Origin: Juglans regia
Taxonomy: Eukaryota > Streptophyta > Magnoliopsida > Fagales > Juglandaceae
Reading direction: 5' to 3'
Length of the DNA stretch: 64,000 nucleotides
NCBI RefSeq assembly: GCF_001411555.2
Contig: NC_049916.1
Coordinates: 11,497,945 to 11,561,944 of the forward strand
The position numbers and the translations under genes were made by a program. Below the pieces are notes generated by a model that searched no databases, was not told the DNA's origin, and saw nothing but the letters and a program-made list of their open reading frames with translations. Positions 6,771 through 62,280 of the stretch are shown here, piece by piece. How positions within the stretch are numbered: position 1 is the stretch's first letter; each line of letters begins with the position of its first letter.

Positions 6771-8240
6771 ATGGATGGTACTGGGGGCTGCCGGCCCCCA
6801 CTAACGTCACATGCAAAGACACGATCGTTCGCGGAATTGGTTTCCCAGGTTCCTTAGGCCCTCCCTGAGGTCTCGATTCCTTTCAAGCCACCAAAATGTG
6901 TTGAAGGTGAGTTCTTTGTGCAATTTACTAAGGAGGAGTTGGATCGTTCTGCAATTCCTTTTCGATTCTCTATGGTGTTAAAATTCTTAAGACAAAGACC
7001 ATCTTTGGATCGCATCAGAGGGTTTATTCACAGTAGATGGGGACTATCAAAACAACCAGTAGTTTCAGCAATGCGGAAGGCTCGGAATGTCTTTGTGAGA
7101 TTTTCAGATGAAGATGATTTCTTGAAGTCATTGTCCCGTGAAAGCTGTGATATTGAAGGGGTTGTTTATAGGCCCTTTCAATGGCCTACAGATTTTACTG
7201 AAGATGAGGAACCAGCGTTGGTTCCAGTTTGGATCATGTTGCCTCGGCTACCTCTGAATCTTTATCAAGAATCATTCTTGCGGAATATTGTTGCACCGAT
7301 TGGACTCTTCTTAAGGAGAGATAATGCGACACGCTGTGTGACTCGTACCGATGGTGCAAGGGTGTGTGTTTTGATGAATATAGATCATGAGCTGATTCAC
7401 TCGATTTGGATTGGGACGCCGAGACATCCTACAAGCATTTTCCAAGAAGTTGATTATGAAACATTGCCTGCATTTTGTTCCTTGTGCAAGGTGCAAGGGC
7501 ATAACGTAAAGACGTGTAAGGCAAACAAGAAAGAAGGAAAAGATAGTAAGAGCTTGAAGGTTATTAAGTCAAGTAAAATCTGGGTGCCAAAGGATAAAGA
7601 AGATGATGCGAAGATTAATAAAGATCATTCGGGGAAAACCTCAGAGTCCCCTGTTTTGGCATTGGAAGATGTTGAGATTGAGGTGCTGGTCTTGGAATAT
7701 GGCAAGGATGTAGGGAAGTCGAAGTTGGTGTCTGTGAGTGTTATCGAAGATATGGAGGCTCCCGAGCAGAGGAAAAATCCGTTGATTTGTGGAGAGGCCA
7801 GCGGGACTTTACCAGTTGAGGAGTTGGTCTATTTACCAATAACAGTTCATGATCTGTCTGCTGTAGTTGGTGGCCAATTAGAATCCAGAAGGGTGGAACT
7901 CAGCGAGACTTTACCAGTAGTGGAAGTTGCAATGCAAAAAGAATCCAGTATTGTGGATCCCAGCGGGAATTCATCAGTAGCGGATGATGCTGTGCAGCTA
8001 GAGTCCAGAATTGAAATGGTTCCAAGCGGGACTATCCCAGTAGCAGAAGGAGATGTGCAGTTAGTCCCGCCAGATTTGCAGATGGAGTCCAAATCAGAGG
8101 ATGAAGGTAATTATCCCCACCTAGGTAAACAAAAAGATGATTTTTCGGATTCTGATTTAGTAGTTAGGAAGTCTCCTAGTAAGCGTATGTTATGTAGGTC
8201 CTATAGGGTTCCTAGCAAGCCCTCTAAGCAGAATCAATGA
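6771..8240 (+). pseudogene. LINE ORF1, nucleic-acid-binding protein (one nonsense codon)
   Basis: ORF1 proteins bind the LINE RNA and form the particle needed for target-primed reverse transcription. The frame is open from ATG at 6771 except for TAG at 6855-6857 (codon 29); the longest stop-free stretch starts at Met 50 (6918). The segment RSFAEL just before the stop and PPKCVEG after it are the usual start of plant LINE ORF1, so 6771 is the better start and the TAG is a mutation. Residues about 60-210 form a DUF4283-like domain. Residues about 234-247 are a CCHC knuckle, CSLCKVQGHNVKTC. The rest is an acidic, repeat-like tail with several SGT/LPV segments. ORF1 overlaps ORF2 by four bases (ATGA). 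Translation from 6918 would lose only the first 49 residues, so a partly working protein is possible. Confidence 0.85.
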
Positions 8241-11200
8241 TGAATAAAATGTTGTTTTGGAACATCCGTGGCCTTGGTACCTCGAGGAAATGTTTGAGGG
8301 GGCTTGTACGAGAGCTGCAACCTATTATTTTTTTTATTGCAGAACCGTTTAGGGATGATTCTCATTTGAGTTATTGGAAGACGTTTCTAGAATTTGATGA
8401 GTGTCTATCAAATGCTAATCAAGCAGGAAAGCTTTGGTGTTTTTGGAAGTCTGGTTTGAAGGTGGATGTTATGGGTGTTTCGGATCAGCATCTTACTTTG
8501 CTTATTAATTCTAGTTTATTGATCTCTTCGGTTTATGCAAAGTGTCGTTTTTTAGATCGGAGGTCTTTGTGGTCTAATTTACATGGAGTTAATAATTTGC
8601 AGTTTCCTCATGTGATTATTGGGCATTTTAATGTCATATGTAATGATAATGAGAGAAGAGGGGGAAATCCTAGGATGCTTATTGCAATGGAGGATTTTTG
8701 TTCCTTTATTGATAATGGCAGATTTGTTGAGGTGCCTTTTTCAGGTTATGGTTTTTCTTGGTGCAACGGACGATTAGGTATGGCGCGTTCATGGGCTAGA
8801 TTGGATAGAGCTTTATGTAATTCCAAGTTTAAGGAACTTTATCCGTCGGGTAGAATTCAATATCTTCCTAGGAGGACTTCAGATCACTCCCCTATGGTAT
8901 TGGGTCATTTGGTTTCATCTGCTAGGTATGGTCACACATCTTTTAAATTTCAATATATGTGGAGTAATCATGACGATTTTTGGAGATGTGTTTCTAGTTC
9001 TTGGCAGGTGGAGGTTAGTGGTACGGGTTTGTGGAAGCTAGCCGCGAAATTGAAGAGGTTAAAACTGGTTCTTAAATCTTGGAACAAGGACGTGTTTGGC
9101 TGGACAGGAAAGCATATTAAAGAATTAGAAGCTAAAGTGGAGGAAGGTGAATTAAGGCTACAAGAATGTTACTCAGAGAATGTTGAAGCAGACGTTTTAG
9201 CTAACAAGGTTGAGCTTGATGTCTGGTTAAAAATGGAAGAGTCTTGTATTGCTCAACAAGTCAAACAAAAGTGGGTATCGCAGGGTGAGGTTTCGATTGC
9301 TTTCTTTAAAGCTTTGCAGAATAACAAACATAATATGGCGATGGAAATGAAGCTCTCTGATGGCAGAGTGCTTAACTCGCCTGAAGATATCCATGAGGTT
9401 GTGTGTTTTTTTTGAGGATTTCCTCAAAGCTAAATCAACAAGTTCATTGCCAGATCTGGTTGGGTTAATTTTAGAGGAAGTTTCGGAGGAGGAAAATCAA
9501 TTTTTTGGTAGTATTCCGTTGGTTGGGGAAGTAAAAGATGCACTTTTTTCTATTCTGGTGGATAGTAGTCCGGGGCCGGATGGATTTGGCTCAGGTTTTT
9601 TTCAGCATTGTTGGTCCTTGGTGTATCAAGATTTATTGGAAGCTGTTAGTGATTTTTTTGGTGGGGCTGCCTTACCAAGGTTTTACTCTGCCTCTTATAT
9701 TGTCTTAATTCCAAAAAGTTCAGAATCCTACGTCGTTTGGGAATTTTAGGCCCATAAGTCTCTGTTCAGTAGTCTATAAAATTTGTTCTAAAATTTTAGT
9801 GAACAGATTTACTTTAGTTTTCAGTAGGATTATTTCTATGGAACAAGGAGCTTTTTTGCCTGGTAGAAGTATTTTTTAAAATATTAGTCTAACTCAGGAG
9901 CTTATTCATGATATAAACAAGCCAATTCGAGGAGGTAATATTATGATGAAAATTGATTTTGCAAAAGCTTATGACACGATTGACTGGGATTTTTTAAGTC
10001 ATATTTTGAAAGCTTTTGGTTTTTCCCCAGAGGTTTGTCATTTGTTAGTTCAATGTGTTAATACGCCTTGGTATTCTGTGGTAATGAATGGTGCTGCAAA
10101 AGGTTTTTTCAAGGGTGGACATGGTCTCCAACAAGGAGATCCTCTATCTCCTTATTTGTTCATTTTGGTAGAAGAAGTTCTCTCTCGGCTGTTAAAAAAG
10201 AAATTTGAGTTGGGTAGAATTAAAAGTTTTTCCCATCCTAGACATGGTCCTGTTATTTCTCATCTTTTATATGCTGATGACATGGTGATTTTCGCAAATG
10301 GAGGGAGGTCTTCAGTTTCGGAGATTGTTGAAGTTCTTCGTATTTATGTTGAGTGGTCGGGTCAACAGGTAAATAGGGCCAAGTCATCTATCTTTTTCTC
10401 TAAAAGAATTAATTTTGTTAGACGTAGACATCTTTTATTGAATACACAGTTCACGGAAGGGGTGTTCCCGGTCAAGTATTTAGGGGTGCCTATTGTTTCT
10501 AGCAAATTGAAGTTAATTCATTTCCAGGATGTTATTCAAAAAATTCATAAGAAGATTGAAGGTTGGAAGGTGAGTTTTCTCTCCCCAGGGGCGAGAGTCA
10601 TTTTATTAAAGCATGTGTTGTCGAGTATGCCAATTCACTTGTTATCGGTGATGTAAGTTCCGAAATTAGTGTTGCTTCAGTTTAATAAGTTATTTAGCAC
10701 TTTTTTTTGGGGCTCAATTAATGGGAGTCCCAAGAGGAAATGGATTAAATGGGACAGATTATGCAAACATGTTGATGAAGGAGGGGTTGGTTTGAGAAGT
10801 TTTGTTGATGTGCAAAGATCATTGCATCTTAAATTTGCCTGGAATTTGTTAAGTTCAGATTCTTTATGGAAAATATTTTTTTTGTGCTAAATATTTGCAT
10901 GGTCAGCATCAGCTTGAGCTTAGTCCATCTAGAGGCACTAGATGGACTAAAAGAAATTCATGTTGTACTTTCACGTTCCAAGTGGAAGATTAGGGAGGGG
11001 AACGTGTCGTTCTGGAGAGACAGTTGGCTAAATTCTGGACCTCTAATGGAGCAGCATCCGATGGTGGGTGATTCAGAATTGAAGCTGAAAAATTGTATGA
11101 TTAATAACAATTGGGATATGGAGCAGCTTGAGCAGCTAGTAGGGCCTAAGAAAATGGAGGAAATAGTCAATGAAGTTAGTAGTAGGAGGATTGGTAAGGA

Positions 11201-12339
11201 TCAGCTTATTTGGTTAGAAAATTCGGATGGGTCTTTCACGACTAGAATAGCCTGGTCTTTTGTTCGGATTCGTAATCCTAATTGTCAATGGTCGGATTGG
11301 ATTTGGAATTCAGCTTTACCAAAGAAGTTTTATGTGCTTATGTGGAAGGCCTTAAACTCATGCCTTGCAGTGGATGATCGTATAAGGAGACTTGGTGTGC
11401 CTTTAGTCTCGAAATGTGAATGTTGTCGGGACGGTGCCATTGAGGATATTAATCATGTGTTATATAGTGGTAATATTGCTAAGGCTTTATGGAAGTTTAG
11501 TTCTAATACTTTGGGTATCGCGTTTGTCCCGAACCCGTCTTGGAGGGCAACTGTTGAGGCTTGGTTTCGAAGAGCATCGAAGTCCTCTCAGTTAGGTATT
11601 CTAATGGGAGTTATTCCTATCATCTTCACATGGAATTTATGGAAGTGGCGATGTACAACACGGATGGAAGGTAGGAAGGAGAAGGTTCAGGTTTTATGGA
11701 GATTGATAAAGTATTGGATTAATTGGGTGGGTATTAAGATTCACAAGGATTCCCGGCTTGTGGAAAAGGATGTACAGATATTGAAGTCTTTGAATCTTTC
11801 TATTAATTTAAAAAAAAAGAGGGGTTTCAATGGCAGTAAGATGGGAGAGGTAGAAGAAAGATTGGTTTAAATTGAATGTGGACGGAAGTAGTATTAATAA
11901 TCCTGGAATTTTGGGTGCCGGAGGAGAAGTAAGAAATGAGTTTGGGAAGATGGTTTTTGCGTTTGCTGAATCCATTGGGAGTGGTAGCAATAATCTTGCG
12001 GAAGTTATTGCCTTGCGAAGAGGGATTGAACATTGTAAAAGATTGGGGCTTAATAATATAATTATTGAAATGGACTCGCTTTTGGTTGTTAATTGGGTTC
12101 AGGACAGAAGATGTAATCTCTGGTACTTAGAGGATTTTTGAGAAGACATTATGAATATGTTGGCAGAGCTGAACTTTTCTATTAAGCATATTTATAGGGA
12201 AGGGAATAAGGTTGCAGATTTTTTGGCTCGATTGGGTAGTAATGGGGTCTCCCATGAGTGGTTAGGGCAGACGGAAGTTCCTCATCTATTAAGAGGTATT
12301 CTTAGAACAGATTCATGTGGATTGGCTTATCTCAGGTAG
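8237..12339 (+). pseudogene. LINE ORF2: endonuclease, reverse transcriptase, RNase H (broken)
   Basis: ORF2 nicks the target and copies the LINE RNA into it. 8237-8900 is an APE-like endonuclease: NIRGLG start, AEPF, LDRAL and SDHSP are present, but the catalytic GDFN motif reads GHFN (near 8627), an Asp to His change. Reverse transcriptase spans about 9500-10650, with KIDFAKAYD, GLQQGDPLSPYLF and the active-site YADD near 10270. A zf-RVT domain (about 11250-11500) and RNase H (11872-12250; NVDGS, AEV, MDS and REGNKVADFLARL) follow. Frame changes occur in a T8 run near 9405, an A run near 9717, a T8 run near 10880 and near 11830; in-frame stops lie at about 9879, 10654 (probably Gln), 11838 and 12139 (probably Trp). 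Each break is small, so the copy is decayed but not ancient. Confidence 0.92.
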
Positions 12340-20372: not shown

Positions 20373-20466
20373 GAATGTTTTGTTCTATGTGAAATCTGTT
20401 TGTTCCATGTTTGTTAGTTTGAGCGTGGTAACGTTGTGTACACCTACCAAACCCTTGAAACAGGGG

Positions 20467-20931
20467 ATGACACGATCTAGAAGGACCCCACGTATGTCTA
20501 TTTCTTCAATGGCACAGTTGAGAGAATGAAGAGAACGTCATATCAGAGATTGCCTCAGAAGAAAGCAATAGGTGATAGCAGAACAATCGAGACAGATGAA
20601 AATATTTGAGCATCATCGCACTCATGTGATTGATGCAGATGCTTGAGGAAGGCTTCATTTTTTACGAGCATTACCACATGAGGAACGGCAACTGTGGTGT
20701 AGCTCGAAGGAAGCAAAAAGAAGAAATCAGCGCAACTTTGACCTAGAAGTATAATCGAGTCGCGCAGCGAAAGAACGCGCAAGTCGGTTTATACCTTGTG
20801 AAACCCCGAATACGTCTGCAGATCGTATTCGCTTCCATGAAGAAGGTCAACCAATCAAGGACACGGAGCTTGAGATAGAGCATAGGTTGAACGAATAATT
20901 GGACCACGACTTGGATCTTGAATGGGGTTAA
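20467..20931 (+). pseudogene. Extra 3' ORF of element B1, decayed
   Basis: An unrecognised gene between integrase and the 3' end. One frame from ATG at 20467 to TAA at 20931 (154 codons) is broken by five internal stops but no frameshift. It aligns along its length with the open gene at 28877-29491 and with 38241-38880. Shared motifs are RTPRMSISSMAQLRE near the start, RALPHEERQ in the middle, RASRF, FHEEGQPI and LEIEHRLNE near the end. The N-terminal third is very rich in Arg, Lys and Gln. It is preceded by a conserved CCCTTGAAACAGGG segment. The function is unknown: it resembles neither gag, pol nor an envelope protein, with no signal peptide or membrane span seen. The C-terminal end and the 3' LTR of B1 are lost. 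Confidence 0.75.
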
Positions 20932-27960: not shown

Positions 27961-28825
27961 GTGTCAATCAAAGGTGGTTGGCTTTTCATGTGGGGCTTGC
28001 AACCCTATGGCCAAAGCCCTAGAAATCACTTAGAGTCTCGTGCCTCTGGCTTGTAGTGTCCCTATGCCTGTTAGAAACTCTAAACATGACATGTGGCAAA
28101 AGATTGGATGTGGTGGTCGAAACCCTAGGGTTACATTGGTAAATTTCATGTGATACTTCTTCTAGAATCTTTCCTTCTCCAATGCATAAATGACAATTGG
28201 CACAAAGTCTGAAAATTCCCTAGAGTGGGCATTTGTCGAATCTGAAAGCCTCTTAGTGTTCCCCATGAAATCCTTAGGAAAATCAACCCTTTAGTCTTCC
28301 ATGCACCACCTCCCTATGCAAGATCTTTTGGGAACTATCCAAAATTGACAAGTGGCAAGTGATGGGGTTCTTGGTGAGTGTGAGGCTTGTTGGACGAGTG
28401 GCTCTTGGTCTCTCTTAGGTTAATCTCATAATTTGCCTTCTAGAAGCCTTCATGCATGAGTAACATGTGACTAGTCCAATGGCTTGTCACTAGGGTAGGC
28501 ATGCAAAACCTTTGGTTCCCAAAACCCTAAGCTTCTTTCCCTTAGCTCAGTATCACGTCTAGATTCATAGACTACACATGCGCGACAAGTGGCACAAGCC
28601 ACATAATGTGGGGAGTGACCTATGGTCCTTTAGGGCTTTTTGGGCTTAAGCCCACCCAATTGGCTGAAATCCAGGGGCTTAAATTGCCCTTCTCTTGGGC
28701 TTTAGTTGCCTGATCCTAAGGCCCAATGTCTTAATCATTTTATGCCTAAATCTTGGCCCTCAATAAAATAAAAACTTAGGCAACATAAATACAAATAAAA
28801 GTCTAGCTAAGTTCGGGTTATCACA
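27961..28825 (-). mobile_element. Element H 3' LTR (U3 part)
   Basis: Ends GGTTATCACA beside a polypurine tract, so on the minus strand the LTR starts TGTGATAACCCG. 27961-28370 matches 54228-54645 with clear divergence (roughly one base in eight by eye). I read that second copy as the same part of the other LTR of H. The left part was cut off by the D insertion and later loss. Confidence 0.8.
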
Positions 28826-28838
28826 TCCTCCCCCCTTA
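28826..28838 (-). other. Polypurine tract of element H
   Basis: The minus strand reads TAAGGGGGGAGGA directly before the LTR start TGTGATAACC. It is the plus-strand primer for reverse transcription. Confidence 0.85.
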
Positions 28839-28876: not shown

Positions 28877-29491
28877 TTAACCAAAGTATTCACAATAGGT
28901 AATATCGGGGCTATTACCTCTCTTACTTGCAGCCATAGATTCTCCAAATGATGATGGTGAGGACGATACTTCGTCTGCTTCTTCTATTACCAAATCTTGC
29001 GAAAGATAAAATATCACGTCCAAATCATAGTCGCAATACATGCTTACTCTCATCTCATTCAACTTATGTTGTATCTCCAGCTTAGCGTCCTCAATGGGTT
29101 TCCCTTCATCATGGAATAAAATACGATCCATAGAGGTGTCTAACATCTCAAACAAGGTATACCTACTCGCACGGGCTTCCGCAGTGTGGCTCGTTTCAGC
29201 TTCTTGATTTAGTCCAAGTAGACACATCCTTCTAGCGTCCTTCCATACTATCGGGTCTCGTGGGGGTTGTCTTTCTTCATGCGGTAATGCTCTCTGCAAG
29301 AAAATATTCCCTTGAGGATCTGCATCCATTATGTGGGTGCAACGGTGCTCAAACTTCTCCAGTTGACGCCAATGTGTAGCTATCATTCGATCTTTACTCT
29401 CGTGTCGATTTTTGCAACTACGTCTCCGTCTTTCTCTAATTTGGGCTACTGACGCAATAGACATACGCAGGGTCTTCCTAGGTTGGGTCAT
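28877..29491 (-). CDS. Extra ORF of element H, open, unknown function
   Basis: A 204-residue open frame from ATG at 29491 to a stop at 28874; the frame stays open upstream to 29569, but the other two copies also begin at this Met, after the conserved CCTTGAAACAGGG. I do not recognise the protein. Residues about 1-60 are strongly basic (RERRRRS and similar), possibly RNA- or DNA-binding. RALPHEERQPP lies near residue 70, EARASRYTLFE near 110, and a C-terminal block contains DEGKPIEDAKLEIQHKLNEMR followed by an acidic Ser-rich tail (EEADEVSSSPSS). No signal peptide or membrane span is evident from Met27 on. It sits between the integrase stop at 29619 and the polypurine tract, on the same strand, as an independent frame. 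Homologues are at 20467-20931 and 38241-38880. This copy has no stop, although H is otherwise decayed. Confidence 0.7.
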   Translation of the reverse strand: MTQPRKTLRMSIASVAQIRERRRRSCKNRHESKDRMIATHWRQLEKFEHRCTHIMDADPQGNIFLQRALPHEERQPPRDPIVWKDARRMCLLGLNQEAETSHTAEARASRYTLFEMLDTSMDRILFHDEGKPIEDAKLEIQHKLNEMRVSMYCDYDLDVIFYLSQDLVIEEADEVSSSPSSFGESMAASKRGNSPDITYCEYFG

Positions 29492-29618
29492 TCCCTGTTT
29501 CAAGGATATGGTAGGTGCATACAATGTTACTACGCTTAGGCTAACAACAATGAACAAACAATAACTCATACTAACAAATCTGACATATATTCAAACAAAC
29601 ACATGTATTTCATCAAAT

Positions 29619-29862
29619 CTAAGATACAAACAAGTGAGGGTATTTATTCCTCATTGAATCCTCCCATTCCCAAGTTACTTTAAAATCTGGGCTACTCCAT
29701 AGTACTGTCATTAAAGGTATCTTCCGATTCCTTTGCTCTTGCTCCTTGTGACCAACGATTTGCACTAGCCATTCTTCGTATGACAAATTTGGCTCAAGCT
29801 GAATACTACCAGGTTCCATTACCACTAGTTGTCTTTCTCAGAAGCTCTTCTTCAAAGTCGAT
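29619..29862 (-). pseudogene. Element H integrase C-terminus (chromodomain)
   Basis: The minus strand encodes the end of integrase with a chromodomain-like segment: YEEWLVQIVGHKEQEQRNRKI, then VLWSSPDFKVTWEWED and PHLFVS before the stop. In chromoviruses this domain directs insertion to marked chromatin. A stop lies just upstream of VMEPG. The frame is cut at 29862 by the B2 LTR; the rest of the H integrase is missing, and pol resumes only at 41237 with RNase H. Confidence 0.8.
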
Positions 29863-32800
29863 TGTGATGGCTCAAGTTTTATCTAGGCTTGGCCCTTAGA
29901 ATTTGTTCAAGGTTGCCATGGTATTTTAAGAGCCTTAGTTACTTTGGAACACCTTAGAAACCTCTGATGTAGTAACTTAAGCCCAAGAGAAGAGTGGCTC
30001 TAGTTTACCTTAGAATTTTGGCCTTATTGGGAACTTAGGTCCAACGGTTTAGGCCCATGATCCAATTCTAAATTGCTAAGTGTTATGTGACCCAATCATG
30101 TTATACTTTGTACCTAGTTTTTGTCCAGAATTCGAGTTCCAATGTGGGTTTCTTGGAAAGGGGAGCCTAGGGAAGTGAAATGGTGTCTTTCTAGAAGTTT
30201 TGAATAGGAAGCAGAAGAGAGGCCTTTGGGATTTCGAATCTTGCTAGCTTTTGCCATGTGTCAAGCATGCACCAAGTTTCTAGAAGATTTTTGTGATAAG
30301 ACTTTTGTATCAAAGACGAGTTTGCCCATAGGGTTGCGGCTAGCATACCCCCAAGCCTTCCATTCGCTTGCCACTTGTCACTTAGTGAATTTTAGACCAA
30401 TGAAATGTGAAGGGTCACCTAGGGAATGAATATTGGGAAGATGAAGCAACACTTTGGGAATGGAAATGTGAAGAGGACGGTTAGGGCTATGGCACACGCC
30501 CAATGCCACTTGTCCCCCTTTCCAAGAGTTTCTTGTTGGGAATAGGAAGAGACATGCATGGTTTTACCAAGTTAACCCTTGAGAAGATATTGACTTGTTA
30601 AAGGAAAGGAAGGGCATAAGAGGGAAAAGAGATTTTCAGCCAAGGAGGGAAGCCAACATGCCACCTCCAAGAATGCCCCTTCCCAATGCAATCTAAATGG
30701 GGAACTCCAAGAGACTTTTCGGTTTTTTAGAGAGGGAGAAGAAGAAACCTTGCCACTTGTCTCACAAGCAATGGTTTTGATTCAAACAATGAGAGAAGTG
30801 AAGGGTCTCTTATATAAAGAGAAGGGTGCACGCCTAGGAGGCTTTCGCTTGCAATTTTTCGGATTTTGCATGACTTTCCACTCTCCCCACACAAATCTCC
30901 TCTGTTCCTTTGAAAAGTCTCTCTCATTTTCTTGTGTTTTCTCTCCAACCAATCAAGAAGGATCCTTGCAAGAGAAGGATTTCGGCCCTACCCAAGGATT
31001 TGCAAGGTAAGGTTCAATTTTTTCTAAGTCTTACTCATAGACAAGTCTTTTCTCAATACGAAAATGAGATTCAAATCTTATTTGACTTTGAGAAATGATA
31101 GAACACACTTTCTACTATTTTCTTGGAAATAACTTAGGGTTCAGAGTAACCCTTGAGGCCGAGTAGTGAAGGGGGAATTTATCCTCCATGTTTCAACCAT
31201 CACATGTATTCTTGCATACCTTAGTTTTTGTTTTACCTTATCAGTGAAATGAGGAGGGTTTTAACCTAAAAGCCCTAAGACCGGAATGGTTTAAGACCAA
31301 GTGATGCCCTAGAAACAAACACACACTAAAGAACATAAGATAGGGTTTTAGATGCTCTTTCTAATGTGGTATGTTTGGGTTTACAGCTTGCTAGTATTTC
31401 TTTACGAGGATTTTTAAGTATACACTCAACTTGCCCTTGGTTAATATTCGTATATAAATGTGTAAATCTTTTCATTGCCATGTTTGCTTTGTTTGCTATT
31501 TCTTAATTGATTAATTGATTATGTTAATATGATATTGTATCAATCTATGGAAGGAATTATATGCTTTGAAATTGTGATGAATATGCCATGAAATACTCGT
31601 ATATGTTTGAATTTTCACATGTTTAAGAAGGATGGAATATGTATCATGATATTTTGGCCATATCATGTCTTGAATGATTCGGATCTTAGCCAAATGTTAT
31701 GATTTCATGCATTGTTTTACTATGCTTTGATCCCTATGTTATTTTCTTGAAGATTGGAACATGTTTAAGAGATGAACTTCATGATTTTTACCCCTATATG
31801 TTTCGGCCTAAGCAAGTTCTTATGGTTCCATAAATGTGTTTGGATGTTTCATGTTATCATGCCATGAATTGAACATGTTATGATTAGCTATTTCTTGCAT
31901 GATGTTCCATATGTCACATGTCAAGTATAAGTACGTATGTCTTAAGTTCCATGTCACATGCATTTAAAGAAAATGTTTTTAAAGAAAAGTGTTTTTCAAA
32001 TAAAAGAATCTAAACATTTTATCACGACCCCAAGTGCTAGGGCTGGGGAATGTCCTAATGGAACTCCTATGTCCGCTCTGGAGTGCTTAAGAATGGAGTG
32101 GTAACCCCTTGGTCAACGAATAATAGTCGACGAGCCTCAAATGAATTCATTTTAAAGGATGCCGGAGCGAGGAAGCACCTAATGCTAGTGGGTGCATAAG
32201 GCATGTAACCAGACGAAGTAAGGTCGAGTTAATATGTTTTCCTTGTTTATGACGTATTCATCACGGTATACAGACTGTTGATGGTGCGGTAACTAGCAGG
32301 AACACGCGGTGCAAGGAGGGGAGTCGTGTTGTGTTCACCCTCTGAACAAGTATAAGAGCTCATATGATAAGGATCACTCGATGTAAATCTTGTGATATGT
32401 TTTGGTAAGACAAGTCCTGAATAAGATCACATAAATAAGAAAAAGTTAAGAAGTTTTCATGAAAATCTTAAGTCTCTCTTACAAGTCTTTTGCAAATGGT
32501 CAAGTACATAAGTCAAGTTCTGGTTAAGGCATAAGTCTAGTACATGTCCATGCATGCATATCATGATATACTTTTTGTATGCTTGTATTAACTGCGGTAT
32601 GTTGTGTGATTACTTACTGAGATTTCTCAAAATTTCATTGTGGTAGTTTCCACTAGCATTCCCCAATCGGAATGGTAGAAGTTGTGATAGGTTTAGTAAG
32701 AGACAACTATGACCAAGAGGAAGAAAATGGCACCTCTTCCTCCGAAGAGGATTGTGCCAAAAATGGCCAAGAATCGGCTTGAGCCCTCCATCTGGGAGCA

Positions 32801-33333: not shown

Positions 33334-33351
33334 TGGTATCAAAGCAATTAC
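33334..33351 (+). other. Primer binding site of element B2
   Basis: TGGTATCAAAGCAATTAC five bases after the LTR end; complementary to initiator Met tRNA apart from A for G at position 9. Confidence 0.8.
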
Positions 33352-33567: not shown

Positions 33568-34709
33568 ATGGTCCAAAACCTGCGTGAGAATACATCTCCG
33601 AGAGGCAAAGACCAAGAGACTGGGGATCCTCCAATGGAAAGGGGATAGGCTATAACTGAAGCTATTCGCCAAATGACTGAAGTGGTGCGTACTCAGGTGA
33701 AACAAGGACAGAATGATAGACAAGTACTGCCTAGAGGAGAACAAGGATATATTTATGAGAAATTAATGGTGTATAGATACCCAAATTTCATTGGAATGAA
33801 AGGACCTTTGAAGGCTAACAAGTGACTTATGGACTTAGAAAGAACTTTTGAAATTAGTGGATGTACTGAGAAGCAGAGGTCTAGTATGCAAGTCATATGC
33901 TTCAAGGCGAAGCTGGAATTTGGTGGCAAACCAAACGGCAGCTTTTGGCCCAAGAATTGGGTAGTCTAACCGCACTCACTTGGGGACAATTCAAGACAGA
34001 GTTTGACAACCGTTTCTTTCCAGAGACGGCTAAGAAGCAGAAAGCTTTGGAAGTTGCAATTTTGACTCAAGGGAATATGACGGTCGATCAATACGCCACT
34101 TGTTTTATGGAAATGGGAAGGGTCGCACCTCATCTGATCAGAACCGAGAAGATGCAAGCAAGGAAGTTCCCAGACGGTTTGCAACCTCATATCCGAAACC
34201 AAGTAGCATGTCTACATATAGGAAATTTCCAAGAATTGGTCAATGTGGCTTCGATAGCAGAGGTGGAGCAACAACGACTAATCGCACATGCTCAAGTGGA
34301 TAGGAAAAGGGGATTTCTTATTCGTCAAGAAGTAATATGGGGAAGCAAAAGGCCTGGTAACCCCAAGCAAGGGAAAGGGAGTGGTAGTTGGGAAGGCAGC
34401 ACCCATTACTCCACCACCTTGCCGCCAATGCGGAAAAGGCACAGTGGATAATGTTGAAGGGCCTTAGGAGCGTGTTTTAGATGTGGTTAAACAGGCCATA
34501 TGATCCGGGATTGTCCACAGATTATGCCTAGAGGAGTGTCGATGCCAAACGCTAAACCCAAGACTGTAGCAAAAGCCAAGGTCTTTGCTCTTGTGCTAGG
34601 AGAAGTAGACCTAGAAGCTGATGAGACGGCAGACACTGGAGTGATTACTGGTAAAGTTTACAACTTTGCCTTAATTGTAGATAGCTTGTGTCTAGGAAAT
34701 CTTGAGTAA
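33568..34709 (+). pseudogene. Element B2 gag, decayed
   Basis: Gag forms the particle and binds element RNA. ATG at 33568 is chosen as the first Met of the frame that carries the gag N-terminus (RQMTEVVR, then a segment like LMDLERTFEISGCTEKQR). Stops lie at 33646 (TAG) and near 33824 (TGA where Trp is usual, before LMDLE). A frame change near 33890 leads into MLQGEAGIWW, the core capsid block (33897-34430), with WGQFKTEFDNRFFPETAKKQK and VDQYATCFMEMGR. The zinc fingers at 34410-34520 (CRQCGK; then TGHMIRDCP) are split by a frame change and a stop. A linker rich in Ala and Lys follows to 34709. Size and order agree with gypsy Gag; it is not translatable as one protein. Confidence 0.88.
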
Positions 34710-37700
34710 TCATTGCTATTTCTTTAGGTAAAGTTAGATTGAAGTAGTACGTGGTAAATGCTTTGTTTGATTTTGGAGCATCGAGGTCTTTTATCTCTAA
34801 TAGATGAGTACGACGATGTGAGCTCGAGGTTGAGCCAATGTCTCGGAAGGTTTTAGTAGCTATCCCCGACAGGAACGTAATCGGTTGTACGAGTATAGTT
34901 ACGAATTGCCAGCTAGAAATCGTGAATTTGGTCTTGACTGCAGATTTGATTGTTTTTCACATGATGGAATTCGATCTAATCTTAGAAATGGACTAGTTGT
35001 CTAGGCATTACGCCCAGATAAACTATCGGAGGCGGGAGGTAGTGTTTAACCTACCTGCACGTGAAAGCATTTGTTATATAGGTGAGTCTGTTCGGCTCAA
35101 TCTATTTACGATAACAGCCGAACAAGTCAAGAAGATTTTGGTCAACGGGGACAATGTCCATCTAGTAATGATAAGGGACATAAAGGTAGGACCTGAAGGA
35201 ATCCAAGGAATCCCTATGATTGAGGATTTTCCTAAGGTTTTCGCCTACGAACTACCTAGATTACCTCCAAATCGACATACAGAATTTGTAATTGAGCTTG
35301 AACCGACCACAGCCCCTGTGCATAAGGCACCCTATCGGATGGCCCCAGCAGAATTAAAAGTGCTTAAAGTGCAGATTGAAGAACTTCTAGCTCAAAGGGT
35401 CATATTCGACCTAGCTCATCACCATGGGGAGCACCGATCTTGTTCGTTAAGAAGAAGGATGGGACCCTTCGAATGTGCATCGATTATAGGGATTTGAATA
35501 AAGTGACTATTAAGAATAAATATCCCTTACCAAGGATAGAAGATCTATTGGATCAGTTGCAAGGAGCTGCAATTTTCTTGAAGATTGATCTACGATCTGG
35601 ATATCATCAACTCGGAATAAGGGAGCAAGATGTCTCTATGACTACTTTTTGAACCCGTTACGGACGCTTAGAGTTTCTAGTCATGCCTTTTGGTTTGATG
35701 AATGCTCCTGCCGCATTTATGGAATTGATGAATCAGATTTTCTGGCAATATTTAGGTAGTTTCACAGTGGTATTCTTAGATGATATATTGATTTACTCTC
35801 ATGATGAGGAAGAGCATATGAAACATTTGAGGATTGTACTGGAAACATTGCAGGAACATCAGTTGTATGACAAACTTAGTAAGTGCGAGTTCTGGCTTCA
35901 TGAATTGAAATTTTTGAGACATGTGATTTCTAGCAAAGGAGTGGCAGTGGATCCTGCCAAGATTGATGTTGTAATGGAATGGCAAAGGCCAACTAATGCT
36001 CATGAAGTATGTAGTTTTCTTGGTTTACCAGGATATTACGGAAGGTTTGTGGAAGGATTTTCCAAGCTTTCTAGCCCTTTAACAGCACTGACAAGAAAGA
36101 ATGCTAGATATGTATGGACTGACCAGTGTGAGAGGAGTTTCCAGGAATTGAAGAAGAGGTTGACTTCGGCCCTAGTGTTGGCATTACCAGAGCCTCATAA
36201 GCCCTACGTAGTCTACAGTGAAGCCTCTAAGATGGGTTTGGGATGTGTTCTAATTCAGGAAAGAAGGATCGTCGTCGCATATGCTTTGCGATAGCTCAAA
36301 GACCATGAACGAAATTACCCTATCCATGACTTGGAATTAGTAGCAGTAGTTTTTGCGTTAAAAATCTGGAGGCACTATTTGTACTGAGAGAAATGCAAAG
36401 TGTACACAGATCACAAAAGTCTAAAGTATCTGTTTAGCCAGAAAAATCTGAATATGAGGCAACAAAGATGGGTGGAGACCATTAGTGATTATTAGTACAA
36501 GATTAAATATCACCCCGGCAAGGCTAACGTTGTAGCTGATGCACTTAGTCGCAAGGCTCAGACAAACTTACCATCAGTTCTAGTAAGATTGAGGAACCTA
36601 ATGATTGGAGATCCGCCGCAAGATGTCATTTATGCAGTAGTACAGGAGTTCATATATGTGATTGAAGAAGAAATCCTGGATGGACAGTGCAGAGATGAAA
36701 AATTGGAGAAGCTTTGAAAAAAGATTATGAAATTAGAAGGGCCGCAACTTTTCTATATTGGAAGGAATGAAATTCTCTTTTACAAGAAGAGGAAAGTAAT
36801 TCCTAACCTCGCCGAACTTAAGGAAAAGTTACTAAGGGAAGCTCATTGCACCCCTTACACAGCACACCCTGGCAGTATGAAGATGTATCGAGATTTAAAA
36901 GGCCAAGTTTGGTGGGATGGAATTGAGAAGGACGTAGCAAAGTTTGTGGCAAAATGCTCTATTTGCCAGATGGTAAAAGCCAAACATCAAAGACCGGCAG
37001 GTGAACTACAGTCATTGCCTATCCCCGAGTGGAAATGGGATGATGTGTCTATGGACTTTGTAATCGGTCTGCAAAGGACATCTTCAGGAAAGAATTCGAT
37101 ATGGGTTATAGTCGACTGATTGACTAAGAGCGCACATTTTCTACCCACAGCCAACACATATTCTATGGAGAAACTATCTCAACTTTATGTTAAGGAAATT
37201 GTCTGATTGAATGGAGTACCTAAGACTATAGTATCGGACCAAGATACCCATTTTACTTCCTGATTTTGGCATAGTTTGCAAAAGATGTTAGGCACTCGTC
37301 TGAATTTTAGCAGTGCTTATCATACTCAGACATGCGGACAAACAGAATGTACAATCCAGACCCTGGAAGATATGCTGCGAGAATGTGTTTTGGAGCTAAG
37401 TGGTGATTGGGAAAGTCACCTACCTTTGGTGGAATTCACCTACAATAATAGTTTTCAAGCTACCATTCAGATGGCACCCTATGAGGCTTTGTACGAAAGG
37501 AAATGTAGATCCCCGTTGTATTGGGATGAAGTCGGTGTGAGGAAAATGTTAGGACCCGAATATCTACAAGAAGTTTAGAGACAAGTAAATATGATTCAAG
37601 AAAAAAATGAAAGTCGCTTAGAACAGACAGAAGAGTTATGCCGATAACCGACATAGGAATTTGGGGTTTGCAATAGAAGATTAGGTATACCTCAAACTAT

Positions 37701-38097: not shown

Positions 38098-38240
38098 AAA
38101 CCTTTGATATATGTATGAATTGTGTGATATGGATGTATATATGCCACGAATGCTTTGTTCTATGAGAAATTTTCTATTTCGTGCTTGCTAGTTTAAGTAT
38201 GGTAATCATGTGTACAATTATTGAACCCTTGAAACAGGGA

Positions 38241-38880
38241 ATGGCACAAATAAGGACCCCACATATGTTTGTTTCTTCAATGGCATAGTTAAGGGAACAT
38301 AGAGAATGTCGTATCAGAGAGCGCCTTAGAAGAAAACAGCAAGTGTTAGCAGAGCAAGCAAGACAGATGGAAATGTTTGAGCATCATCGCACTCATGTGA
38401 TGGATGTGGACGGCCGAGGAAGACTTCGCTTTTGACGAGCATTACCACACGAGGAACGACAGCCGTAGAGGAGCTCAAAGGAAGTAGAAAGAAGAAAGCT
38501 GCATAATTTTGATCCAGAAGTATAATCAAGTCGCACAGCTGAATAACGCGCAAGTCGGTTTGTACCTTTTGAGACTTCGGATACGTCTGCGGATTGTATT
38601 CATTTTCGTGAAGAAGGTCAACCAATCGGGACACCGAGCTTGAGATGGAACATAGGTTGAATGAAATGCGGGTCAATTTGTATTTTGATTACGATTTGGA
38701 AGCTATATTCTACTTTTCATAGGACTCTATGACCGTGGAGGCAGATGATATGCCCTCATCCTCAACGTCTTCTGAAAAATCTACAGCCGCTTGTGGAGAA
38801 GGTAGTGGTCTGGTATCTCTTCTTATAAGTGTTTTGATTCATGATTGCGGTGTCGATTTCGAGGACAAAATCTTTTTTTA
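38241..38880 (+). pseudogene. Extra 3' ORF of element B2, decayed
   Basis: Starts at ATG 38241 after the conserved CCCTTGAAACAGGG and remains alignable to TAA just before the polypurine tract at 38881. It matches the open copy at 28877-29491 and the B1 copy at 20467-20931: RRKQQVLAEQARQMEMFEH, RALPHEERQP, RASRFVPFET, REEGQPIG, and a late EADDMPSSSTSSEK segment. About six stops and one or more small frame changes near 38640 break it. The basic N-terminus and acidic Ser-rich C-terminus are kept. The end reads VDFEDKIFF, which overlaps the sequence bordering the polypurine tract. No known family is recognised. Its place after integrase and before the 3' LTR is the same in all three elements. Confidence 0.75.
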
Positions 38881-59013: not shown

Positions 59014-59026
59014 TCCTCCCCTCCTA
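59014..59026 (-). other. Polypurine tract of family A element
   Basis: The minus strand reads TAGGAGGGGAGGA next to the LTR start TGTAACAGCC. Confidence 0.9.
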
Positions 59027-60358
59027 AAAAAAAATTTCGTCCTCGAAATCGACGTAAGTACAAACATAAAATACGCTCAAAAGAAAAAGTTGCTTACCAA
59101 CTTATTGCCCATCACTGGATGCCTCATCACGCCCAAGGGGCAGGTCTCGTTCTTCTTGAAATAACGCCTTCTTCTCGTAGTCAACACTATTCTTATCTAT
59201 AACCATCACATGGTTATACAAAAAGACTATCACTATAACATTAAGGTATAACAATCCCAAAGATTACTGCCTAAACTTAATGACTTCTAGACTTTTTAGG
59301 ATACTGACTCCTTGCTTAAAAGAAATCACTATTCTCTTCACTATTCAATGAATTACCACAATGTGTATATATATCTACCATTCTTAACTCTTTCTCTCTC
59401 AAATCATATCAATTTGTACTGGAGTCCTTCCACAAGGTAGGTCAAATCGTACCAGCATACTCTCTAAATCTAAAACTTCAAGTATTCATGCAGTTCAATT
59501 TGGAAGAATTTAATCCATACACAACTGAATTCACATTCTCTATTTCCTCAAGGAATTATATCTGCCTAGGACTAGCTTACTCCTTCATAATCACCACGAA
59601 TCGTTCCTCCTCCTAGGTGGTACCTTGATAAACGATCAGCTATTAACCTCAACTCAAGAGTTTCTCTCTTATGATTAACATAGCTCTTCTATCCATCATG
59701 AGTTGCCTCTTATTCTGACTCTAATCCAAAGAATTTGTTCTTACTGCTCACGTAAATCCTTAAGACAAGCTTTTACTCCCCATATAAAAGTCTCCAATAT
59801 AAGGGCAATCTAGGTTTCCACAAACACGGTGCTTCGCCAGAAACCATTTATTCGCGATTGGATAAAACTATTATCATAAGTGAATCCTACTAAGGCCAAA
59901 GCTTCTCCCACACACTGTACTCTTCCGAACACAAATTTCATTGTAACCTTCGAATCAAAACAAACTCCAAATACTTGGGATACTAATTCATCAACCTTGA
60001 ATATCCTTCCTCGTACTACTAAAAGGTATTCCATATCTACACTGGTATGAATAGAAATACTCTTAATGAAAAATGTTACTCTTACCACCTGGTAACAATT
60101 CAGAGTACGAACTAAACGTACAATACCACAATCACTAAAAATAGGGCCTCGCTTGAATCAAACTGCGTACAAGTTATAAACCTCAATGATTTAACTTACC
60201 CAAAGTATCAATAATGCACTAGTACCATCAATTGTAATCTAATCAACCTTAGATAAGCTTAACAATATAGAGGTCTTAGAAAAAATACCAGTGACGGCGC
60301 CAACTCCTTTAGTTCCTGGGGCGTCAGCATCTGCGTCTCTAGAAGTACCTGCATACAC
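59027..60358 (-). pseudogene. Internal pol remnants of family A element
   Basis: Only scraps of coding sequence can be seen. The minus strand of 59810-60088 includes ALVGFTYDNSF, like the integrase segment LVEFTYNNSF of B2 (37420-37460), with no catalytic residues. At 60290-60358 a gag-protease linker (DADAPGTKGVGAV) can be read. Reverse transcriptase, RNase H and the integrase core are missing. 59027-59800 shows no recognisable protein; near the polypurine tract GATTTCGAGGACGAAAT is the usual sequence before a gypsy 3' LTR. Confidence 0.55.
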
Positions 60359-61371
60359 TTAAGCTAGTACTGGAGGTCGTGGCTTTGGTTTGGAATCTCC
60401 AATGGGAACAGTTCCATTTCTCCGGCCTCTTTTGGGACAATTTCTGATGAAGTGGTCAGGTTGGCCACATCTAAAACAGAGTCCAAAGGTAAGTTTGCAC
60501 TTGCCTCCATGGTTCTTTCCGGACATCCCACATATTGGATACGTGGTCAGTATTGAGCTTCCAGTCTCGATGCCTTCTCCCTTATCTAGTCTAGTAGACA
60601 TCTTCTTCATTTCTAGATTTTCTTTAGTAGCAAACAATGAAGTTCTCTTTCGCTCGGTATTGATCTGGATCGCTAGACCTCTCTGCTCAGCCTCTGCTAT
60701 CGCGGCCACGTTTACCAACTCTTGGTAATTCTTTATTCTTAGGCAAGCTACTTGGCTATGGATCCATGGCTGAAGTCCAGCTTGAAACTTTCGTGCCTGC
60801 ATCCTTTGAGTAGAAATCAAGTGTGGTGCAAACCTTCCTAACACCATAAACTTAGCAGCGTACTGCTCTACGGTCAAACTACCTTGAGCTAAAGTCACGA
60901 ACTCCTGCGCCTTTAGCTGTTTGATAGAATCTGGGAAGAATCCGTTGTCAACTCTTCCTTAAATCTCTCCCAAGACAATGCATCCAAACTTCCTAGTTCC
61001 CTAACTAGAAGTTGCCTTTGTGTATCCTACCATATTCCAGCTTCTCCTTAGAATAGGTATACAACATATAGAACCTTCTGGTCCTCAGTACATCCACAGA
61101 TCTCGTCTGTCCTTTTGAGATCCATAATCCATTTCTCGGCTTTTAGTGGCTCTTCATTACCAGAAAAGTTTGGATAATGATGGATCAAGAACTTCTCACA
61201 CAGACAATCCCTGACTTCGAGTCTGGGTACATGTGCTTGCTGATGTTGCTGTTGTCTAAGCATGTCAGTCAGCAAACGTACGGCTTCAACTAATCCTCCA
61301 TCCATCGGGGGATTCTGATTATCCTAATTTGTAACTCCCTCAGGGTTTTGAGGTATCCTACCTCGAGTCAT
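60359..61371 (-). pseudogene. Family A element gag, nearly complete but broken
   Basis: ATG at 61371 (MTRGRIPQNPEG) is taken as start, since it follows the leader and precedes the conserved gag N-terminus. A TAG lies about 15 codons in; MDGGLVEAVRLLTDMLRQQ continues from 61305, then KFLIHHYPNFSG and KAEKWIMDLKRTDEI. A stop and frame changes occur near 61048 and 60960. The remainder (60359-60898, 179 codons) is open: TVEQYAAKFMVLGRFAPHLI, QARKFQAGLQPWI, then two zinc fingers, CGMSGKNHGGKC and CFRCGQPDHFIRNC (the usual Gly before His is Asp), and a basic Pro-rich tail. Gag would package element RNA; packaging in trans by a helper is the likely way this young element moved. Confidence 0.85.
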
Positions 61372-61517
61372 GTCACTTCCTAAATCACACGAGTACACGT
61401 GTTACAGCCACATACTATCTCTTATACTTCAAGAAATTCAAGCCTAGTAAAGACTAAAATTTCAAGCCTAATATTTGGTGCATTTCCTAAGGACATGTGG
61501 ATTTAAACCCAGAGACG

Positions 61518-61533
61518 TATTGCTCTGATACCA
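61518..61533 (-). other. Primer binding site of family A element
   Basis: The minus strand reads TGGTATCAGAGCAATA, a perfect 12-base match to the Met tRNA complement, three bases inside the 5' LTR. Confidence 0.9.
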
Positions 61534-62280
61534 CCCTGTGACGCCCCCAAATTCCGCTTGGGATCGGACGGACATTTGAAGCGTCGAGACATGCAACACA
61601 AGGTTACCTGCCCCCGTTCATGACATATAAGATGCAATATTCCTAACATGCATCTAGCATTATGCAATATTCGCAGCGGATAATTTTTCTTTTTAGCAAT
61701 ACTATGCACCAAACTGAAATATCCCAAATACTTAAAACATACTTCATACATAATGACATACTAAACAACTGAGATCACAATATTAGTCCATATGGTTGTG
61801 ATCAAAAGAGTGATGGAGATTGAACTCTACAAATACAAGTAGTAATCTGAGGTAACTACTGTATTAACACCTACATCGCATCGTCGCTTAGTCGACCATT
61901 TCCAGTTGGTCGATTCCCGATTCTCCTTCAGATCCTGTAACAAAATCTACCATTCGGGGGGAATGGTAGTTGGGACTACCACAGTGAGATTTGATTACAA
62001 ATCTCAGCAAGTTAACAGGAAACTTCCACACAGGTTAATGATGCATGCATGGCAGTAAAAGCATGAATGCATAATCAAATCGTAAGTAATCATAGCATAA
62101 CTTGACATACAACATAACATAACTGGCATAACTTAAACTGAAACTGAAGCTTAGCATGAACGTGACTTGAAACATAACATGGACTTGAAACATAACATGA
62201 ACGTGAACATGCATAATTTGAACTTGAACTTGAGCATGACATAACATAAATGTGAACTTGGAACATAACGTAAACGTGAA

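Follow-up and report, generated by a model that had tools for sequence, protein, structure and literature searches.

An additional gene behind the integrase-chromodomain of Juglans regia chromoviruses, kept by selection and probably expressed from a spliced message

Background

Additional open reading frames (ORFs) are already known in plant LTR retrotransposons, and the question has been raised whether many of them work at all (PMC6317226). Among chromoviruses, Tekay elements carry a 5′ additional ORF (5′aORF), which in sunflower Tekay 13-2 comprises 402 aa and whose product is predicted to be nuclear (PMC11728184). On the sense strand, 3′ additional ORFs have been described in SIRE and Athila/OTA elements, where they are env-like, and a spliced message is reported for Bagy2 (PMC7264820, PMC6317226). 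The REXdb survey of eORFs in plant Ty3/gypsy elements applied a minimum of 250 codons (PMC6317226). Cer1 of C. elegans makes a nuclear protein from a spliced message, and this protein is needed for export of unspliced RNA, whereas the CR motif of CRM integrases lies within the integrase chain itself (PMC12786077). In the accessible text of the literature searched, a scope outside of which lies the 2011 survey of Ty3/gypsy extra ORFs, no chromovirus was found described with a sense ORF following its chromodomain on the 3′ side.

The gene described here is such a sense ORF between pol and the 3′ LTR, kept by selection among its copies. It resembles the Tekay 5′aORF in being an extra conserved chromovirus protein with no known domain; compared by description, it differs in lying 3′ of pol rather than 5′ and in encoding about 200 rather than 402 aa (PMC11728184). 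With the SIRE, Athila and Bagy2 ORFs it shares the location between pol and 3′ LTR and the sense orientation (PMC7264820, PMC6317226), but, unlike the env-like ORFs of SIRE and Athila, it is carried by chromoviruses and its product shows no long hydrophobic stretch by eye. Like the REXdb eORFs it is an extra ORF of plant Ty3/gypsy elements, yet its 194–204 codons fall below the 250-codon minimum (PMC6317226). It follows the integrase as the CRM CR motif does, except that a stop codon and an intron-like gap intervene, and any likeness to Cer1, namely a spliced message and a nuclear factor, is a functional analogy only (PMC12786077).

Results and discussion

The gene of element H and its homologues in the window

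The window, that is, the whole stretch of 64,000 nucleotides analysed here, contains the following features of the gene and its surroundings (for the H chromodomain stop and polypurine tract, positions were counted by hand).

28877..29491, minus strand: extra gene of element H (product P0001), 204 codons plus stop by translation; N-terminal part basic, RALPHEER core, tail acidic and Ser-rich
29495..29627, minus strand: intron-like gap between the chromodomain and the extra gene of H, 133 nt, T-rich
29619..29789, minus strand: end of the H integrase chromodomain, frame end ...KYPHLFVS-stop, stop at 29619–29621
28825..28837, minus strand: H polypurine tract and first base of the 3′ LTR (TGTGATAACCCG), by eye
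20467..20931, plus strand: decayed homologue in element B1, matched part 20467–20919
38241..38880, plus strand: decayed homologue in element B2, matched part 38253–38806
59102..59212, minus strand: internally deleted gene remnant in a gag-containing element, matching P0003 residues 53–78 (50% identity, E 0.001)

Translation and positions confirm the open 204-codon minus-strand frame that the original prediction had placed between the H chromodomain stop and the polypurine tract. The genes of H, B1 and B2 had been said to begin at a Met following CCTTGAAACAGGG-N, and CCTTGAAACAGGG-N-ATG indeed occurs exactly three times in the 64-kb window, once before each gene (20453–20469, plus; 29489–29505, minus; 38227–38243, plus), compared to no occurrence in 100 shuffles. 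The H frame could reach upstream to 29569. However, the alignment upstream of the ATG contains 1-nt and 8-nt indels and the gap lengths do not keep the frame, which favours the conserved ATG at 29491 as the start.

Strong protein homology bears out the decayed homologues: B1 matches residues 1–159 of P0001 (45% identity, E 3.5 × 10−34), and B2 matches residues 6–133 and 135–193 (45% and 51% identity, E 5.8 × 10−36). All three window copies are among the P0001 matches listed for the same genome. The remnant at 59102..59212 shares its frame end, ...SSDGQ-stop, with P0003 (end counted by hand). Thus, the claim that the gene occurs in three elements holds for H, B1 and B2, whereas "three" proved too narrow given this fourth remnant in the window and the genome-wide matches.

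The domain order was read in B2 only, H being broken up by insertions. B2 contains Pfam gag (33897–34448), reverse transcriptase with RNase H (35683–36291) and the integrase zinc domain (36727–37116), which is the chromovirus order gag - RT - RNase H - integrase. A candidate Pfam Chromo match in two young copies had E 4.2 × 10−4 but scored 20.6 bits, below the Pfam cut-off of 25.1; in the decayed chromodomain of H, which shares 56% identity with that of a related copy, Pfam gave no match. We take the elements to be Tekay-like and the TGGTATCAAAGC site at 33334 to be, presumably, of the tRNA-Met type. Element H is old: over the alignable parts of the LTRs, K is 0.097 in H (412 sites) and 0.062 in B2 (1091 sites), and the insertion order, B2 beginning at 29863 within H, fits these ages.

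Distribution across the walnut genome

In the Juglans regia genome, P0001 has at least 151 matches (150 of 540 candidates scored) and P0003, the 194-aa homologue of a younger chromovirus subfamily whose copies are still open, at least 153 (150 of 653 candidates scored); the two lists overlap in part, some P0003 matches being H-type copies. The two proteins are 30% identical over 186 columns (E 9 × 10−15). Most H-type copies among the P0001 matches listed contain stops. Among the first 16 P0003 matches listed, 12 are stop-free over all 194 codons, at 91–100% identity, and several elements of the young subfamily have pol frames of 1144–1164 open codons. Judged by eye from the P0001 matches listed, gene copies appear clustered in one stretch on several chromosomes, as is expected of pericentromeric chromoviruses.

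Starting from the chromodomain, 20 other loci were chosen for variety out of the 150 rows listed, and 17 of them carry the gene behind the chromodomain; it is absent from L079 and L096, and L089 was not settled. For ten of the 17 the downstream region was fetched, with profile E values from 7 × 10−90 to 3 × 10−13, these ten having been picked following first hints of the gene. Six (L084, L085, L088, L091, L093, L097) have a P0003 match just downstream, and in L098 the profile detects the gene within the locus's own 454 nt (E 2.7 × 10−4). Against the protein database, P0001 alone gave no homologue among 382 candidates, a four-row alignment gave one family member, and a seven-row alignment gave four, two of them walnut gene models (7991 closest candidates scored); the database fragments P0002 and P0005 are also members of the family.

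Relatives without the gene exist, and the gene is thus not strictly essential. In L096, the least similar chromodomain sampled, the chromodomain stop is followed by the polypurine tract within about 70 nt. Of the seven copies whose chromodomain ends in YPYLFGM-stop, five (L070, L071, L075, L077, L079), two of which look identical, run from the chromodomain straight to the LTR, and two (L069, L076) carry the gene or part of it. We infer from the five that the gene can be lost and that a gene-less line still multiplied, perhaps helped by other elements. A tree of the copies places the H type as one group against the LFGM type with support 100 (55 of 56 rows).

Selection on the gene

The H-type set comprised 60 P0001 matches and the three window copies, 63 aligned rows that became 62 with removal of the identical L032. 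For the 50 of these with a usable chromodomain, branch lengths were estimated per codon position on one tree. For the gene, the ratio of positions 1 plus 2 to position 3 was 0.28 on internal branches and 0.74 on terminal ones; the corresponding chromodomain values were 0.17 and 0.56. Across 30 codon bootstraps, the internal-branch ratio ranged from 0.22 to 0.37 for the gene and from 0.14 to 0.32 for the chromodomain. When position labels were shuffled within codons (30 shuffles), the internal ratio of the gene was 0.74–1.29 (control 1.00). The 472 pairs at 30–35% divergence differ by 0.27, 0.26 and 0.47 at codon positions 1, 2 and 3; in the four closest pairs, the differences are 0.04, 0.05 and 0.055. 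The gene was held by selection while the H-type elements moved and has been drifting since.

Among open young copies, the two most diverged, L099 and L100, give dN 0.045, dS 0.404 and dN/dS 0.11 (19.7 nonsynonymous differences in 450 sites and 41.3 synonymous differences in 132 sites; binomial p = 1.6 × 10−13). Ten pairs from five young copies range from 0.11 to 0.52, the higher ratios involving L110, which was fetched without its first codon, and L111, which has a stop at codon 3. The dS of 0.40 between L099 and L100 exceeds the divergence of their gap (0.134) and of their LTRs (0.139, 764 sites), perhaps through CpG decay; 0.11 is therefore a low figure, and the value of about 0.29 obtained with linker or LTR divergence as the neutral rate is the careful one. 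A value near 1, named beforehand as the outcome that would speak against past selection, was not found by either measure. Both copies also have a second open frame, 158–175 codons long, which overlaps the gene in a different reading frame; base composition probably accounts for it.

These results show a protein-coding gene that has homologues in several subfamilies, occupies the same place in their elements and was under purifying selection while the elements moved. That it could be a chance open frame, or a decaying piece of host DNA that does nothing for the element, is hardly credible in view of the codon-position and dN/dS results in two subfamilies, the full-length open copies of the young subfamily and the presence of the same gene in several subfamilies, even if stops in most of the H-type copies listed and the existence of gene-less lines are what such a fragment would show. 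Since selection kept the gene working while its elements moved, it is probably useful to them.

An intron-like gap precedes the gene

The gap of H reads GTATCT at its start, AGTAAC inside and ACAG at its end. In the 50 H-type copies it is 80–174 nt long (median 138; 19, 8 and 23 copies by length modulo 3), and its T content of 0.416, compared to 0.258 in the chromodomain part and 0.257 in the gene, is the higher one in all 50. GT stands at the start in 43 copies, AG at the end in 40, and both in 35; the ten gaps that do not end in AG may be explained by the decay of dead copies. In the 40 AG-ending copies, the median AG-free run before the acceptor is 33, and simple shuffles give 19.7; 36 of these copies have T[AG]A[CT] 15–55 nt upstream of the acceptor, a figure without a control.

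In five subfamilies, an AG precedes the conserved ATG by 3–7 nt. The young type and three further subfamilies have a pyrimidine tract with AG 4–7 nt before the ATG and read, variously, TTCTTTTTG(C/T)AG-TTCC-ATGG, TTCATTTTCAG-TTGCACC-ATGG, TCATTTTCAG-TTTGGAC-ATGG and TCATTTATAG-TTACACC-ATGG. The gap thus has the appearance of the 3′ part of an intron, followed by an exon that opens shortly before the start codon. The acceptor side of this candidate intron is moderately supported by the sequence, and the donor is uncertain: at the donor position, seven of ten young-type loci have TTT/GA (six GAT, one GAC) rather than TTT/GT. The exon position of one walnut gene model, F2P56_015391, fits a start at this acceptor in another copy (judged from position alone). 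The model also takes in pieces lying 8 kb upstream, to which a piece elsewhere on C1 is similar; the upstream pieces are perhaps a host fragment, and the model may be an artefact.

The interpretation we consider probable is that of an accessory gene of several related J. regia chromovirus subfamilies, expressed from a spliced message as a separate small basic-acidic protein. Splicing into the AG 3–7 nt before the conserved ATG would yield the message, and translation from that ATG would yield the protein. Our confidence is lowered by two observations: in the H type, the ATG columns evolve slowly (site rates 0.39, 0.38 and 0.69) whereas the acceptor G does not (1.08), and of the nine readable non-H copies, seven have AG before the ATG and two, L069 and L107, lack it. 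The gene as an accessory of the chromovirus lineage had been foreseen in the original prediction and is borne out; the acceptor-like end of the gap and the breadth of the family go beyond it.

Two other routes of expression were weighed. In the first, removal of a short intron with the donor TTT/GTA, 133 nt long in H, would join the chromodomain in frame to the extra domain, extending the integrase at its C terminus into a second, longer-tailed isoform. The joined H frame is open (...YPHLF-GMTQPRK...), and both the frequency of GT starts (43/50) and of GT...AG (35/50) are compatible with such an intron, as is the wobble A of GTA after the H-type chromodomain, which evolves more slowly than all but one of the 76 chromodomain third positions. 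However, GTA-WCT-TAG may simply represent the codons of the tails LFVS-stop and LFVT-stop, and the GT is missing from the donor position in seven of the ten young-type loci. Moreover, the distance from acceptor to ATG varies by subfamily (3, 4 or 7 nt), so that a shared donor could not be kept in frame, and the ATG is conserved though a fusion would not need one. We consider this extension unlikely; the support that the junction TTT/GGCATG in supposedly gene-less relatives had seemed to provide does not hold. A joined-exon pattern search gave 24 matches, including elements with the chromodomain end YPYLFGM-stop (TTTGGCATGTGA), and 17 of the 24 start with TACCCTTATTT. The reading of the YPYLFGM-stop elements as gene-less ancestors that prove the junction was rejected, two of seven (L069, L076) carrying the gene, and so was that of the LFGM tail as a joined-exon junction, LFGM, LFGL, LFDT and LFVT being different tails across subfamilies. 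None of the 24 matches resembled a spliced H-type genomic copy (seven read, the rest judged from 25 matched bases).

In the second route, which we rate somewhat lower again, the full-length RNA would stay unspliced and the separate protein would be translated from it through reinitiation or internal entry downstream of the chromodomain stop, with the conserved stretch before the ATG acting as a translation element. This would suit the good context of the ATG (GGCATGGC is commonest, 17/50) and its distance from the stop, roughly 130–220 nt in H-type and young-type copies, but would leave unexplained the pyrimidine tract with AG and the AG-poor run.

The protein and its possible role

The predicted basic N terminus and acidic, Ser-rich C terminus are evident from the residue counts: the first 60 residues contain 15 K+R and 7 D+E in P0001 (18 and 9 in P0003), and the tail, Ser- or Pro-rich, 4 and 12 (0 and 17 in P0003). 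The RALPHEER core, also predicted as a conserved motif, is common to both subfamilies. Searches of Pfam, NCBIfam (bacteria and archaea only) and PDB yielded no family or convincing relative of the gene product, and hence no match to a known gag, pol or host domain; together with the dN/dS values, this supports an accessory gene under past selection. Structure prediction, suggested earlier as a check, was informative in part: P0001 modelled as a single sequence reached pLDDT 40, and from a nine-row alignment (window pieces and one database protein) 62, with confidence mainly in the first ~50 residues, where a helix starts at residue 12, and a poor model elsewhere.

A SUMO/ubiquitin-like identity was rejected as a local chance match. 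It covers ~24 residues, reaches E 6.6 × 10−4 only with a tandem two-copy SUMO (0.45–1 with single SUMOs) and falls in a stretch that is not kept in the young subfamily; in this mid-protein stretch, the P0001 model has neither confidence nor strands.

A basic helix, a conserved core and an acidic tail might suit nuclear action on the element RNA or target chromatin, a guess made from composition, and the protein could be a factor of the regulatory or export type, as opposed to an envelope. A fully retrovirus-like plan, in which a spliced 3′ message encodes a small nuclear regulator of export, silencing escape or chromatin targeting, is a tentative proposal that we hold to be possible rather than probable. 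If confirmed, it would mean that a 3′ accessory gene with retrovirus-like expression can be carried by chromoviruses, and that genuine element genes escape ORF surveys limited to 250 codons or more. Here, a single gene family can be traced from long-dead to young open copies with selection measured in both, the candidate splice acceptor is testable, and the protein is a concrete subject for RNA- or chromatin-binding and silencing-interference assays.

Other elements in the window

The gag-containing element with the gene remnant (59014–61537, minus strand) has LTRs at about 59014–54646 and from 61537 to beyond 64000, as delimited by self-comparison. It contains a CCHC frame (60359–60898), and its interior of about 2.5 kb is too short for pol. 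Among the P0003 matches listed, 34 begin at P0003 residues 51–54 (hand count; at least one via a frameshift), and L112, the region upstream of one such match, is 71% like window positions 59184–59517. On the basis of these matches and this likeness, there may be a non-autonomous family carrying P0003 residues 52–194; if gag-containing non-autonomous relatives keep the core of the gene, the protein would act in trans.

A LINE-type element occupies window positions 6918–11867 (plus strand); its DUF4283, endonuclease-like, reverse transcriptase and zf-RVT pieces are spread over separate open frames.
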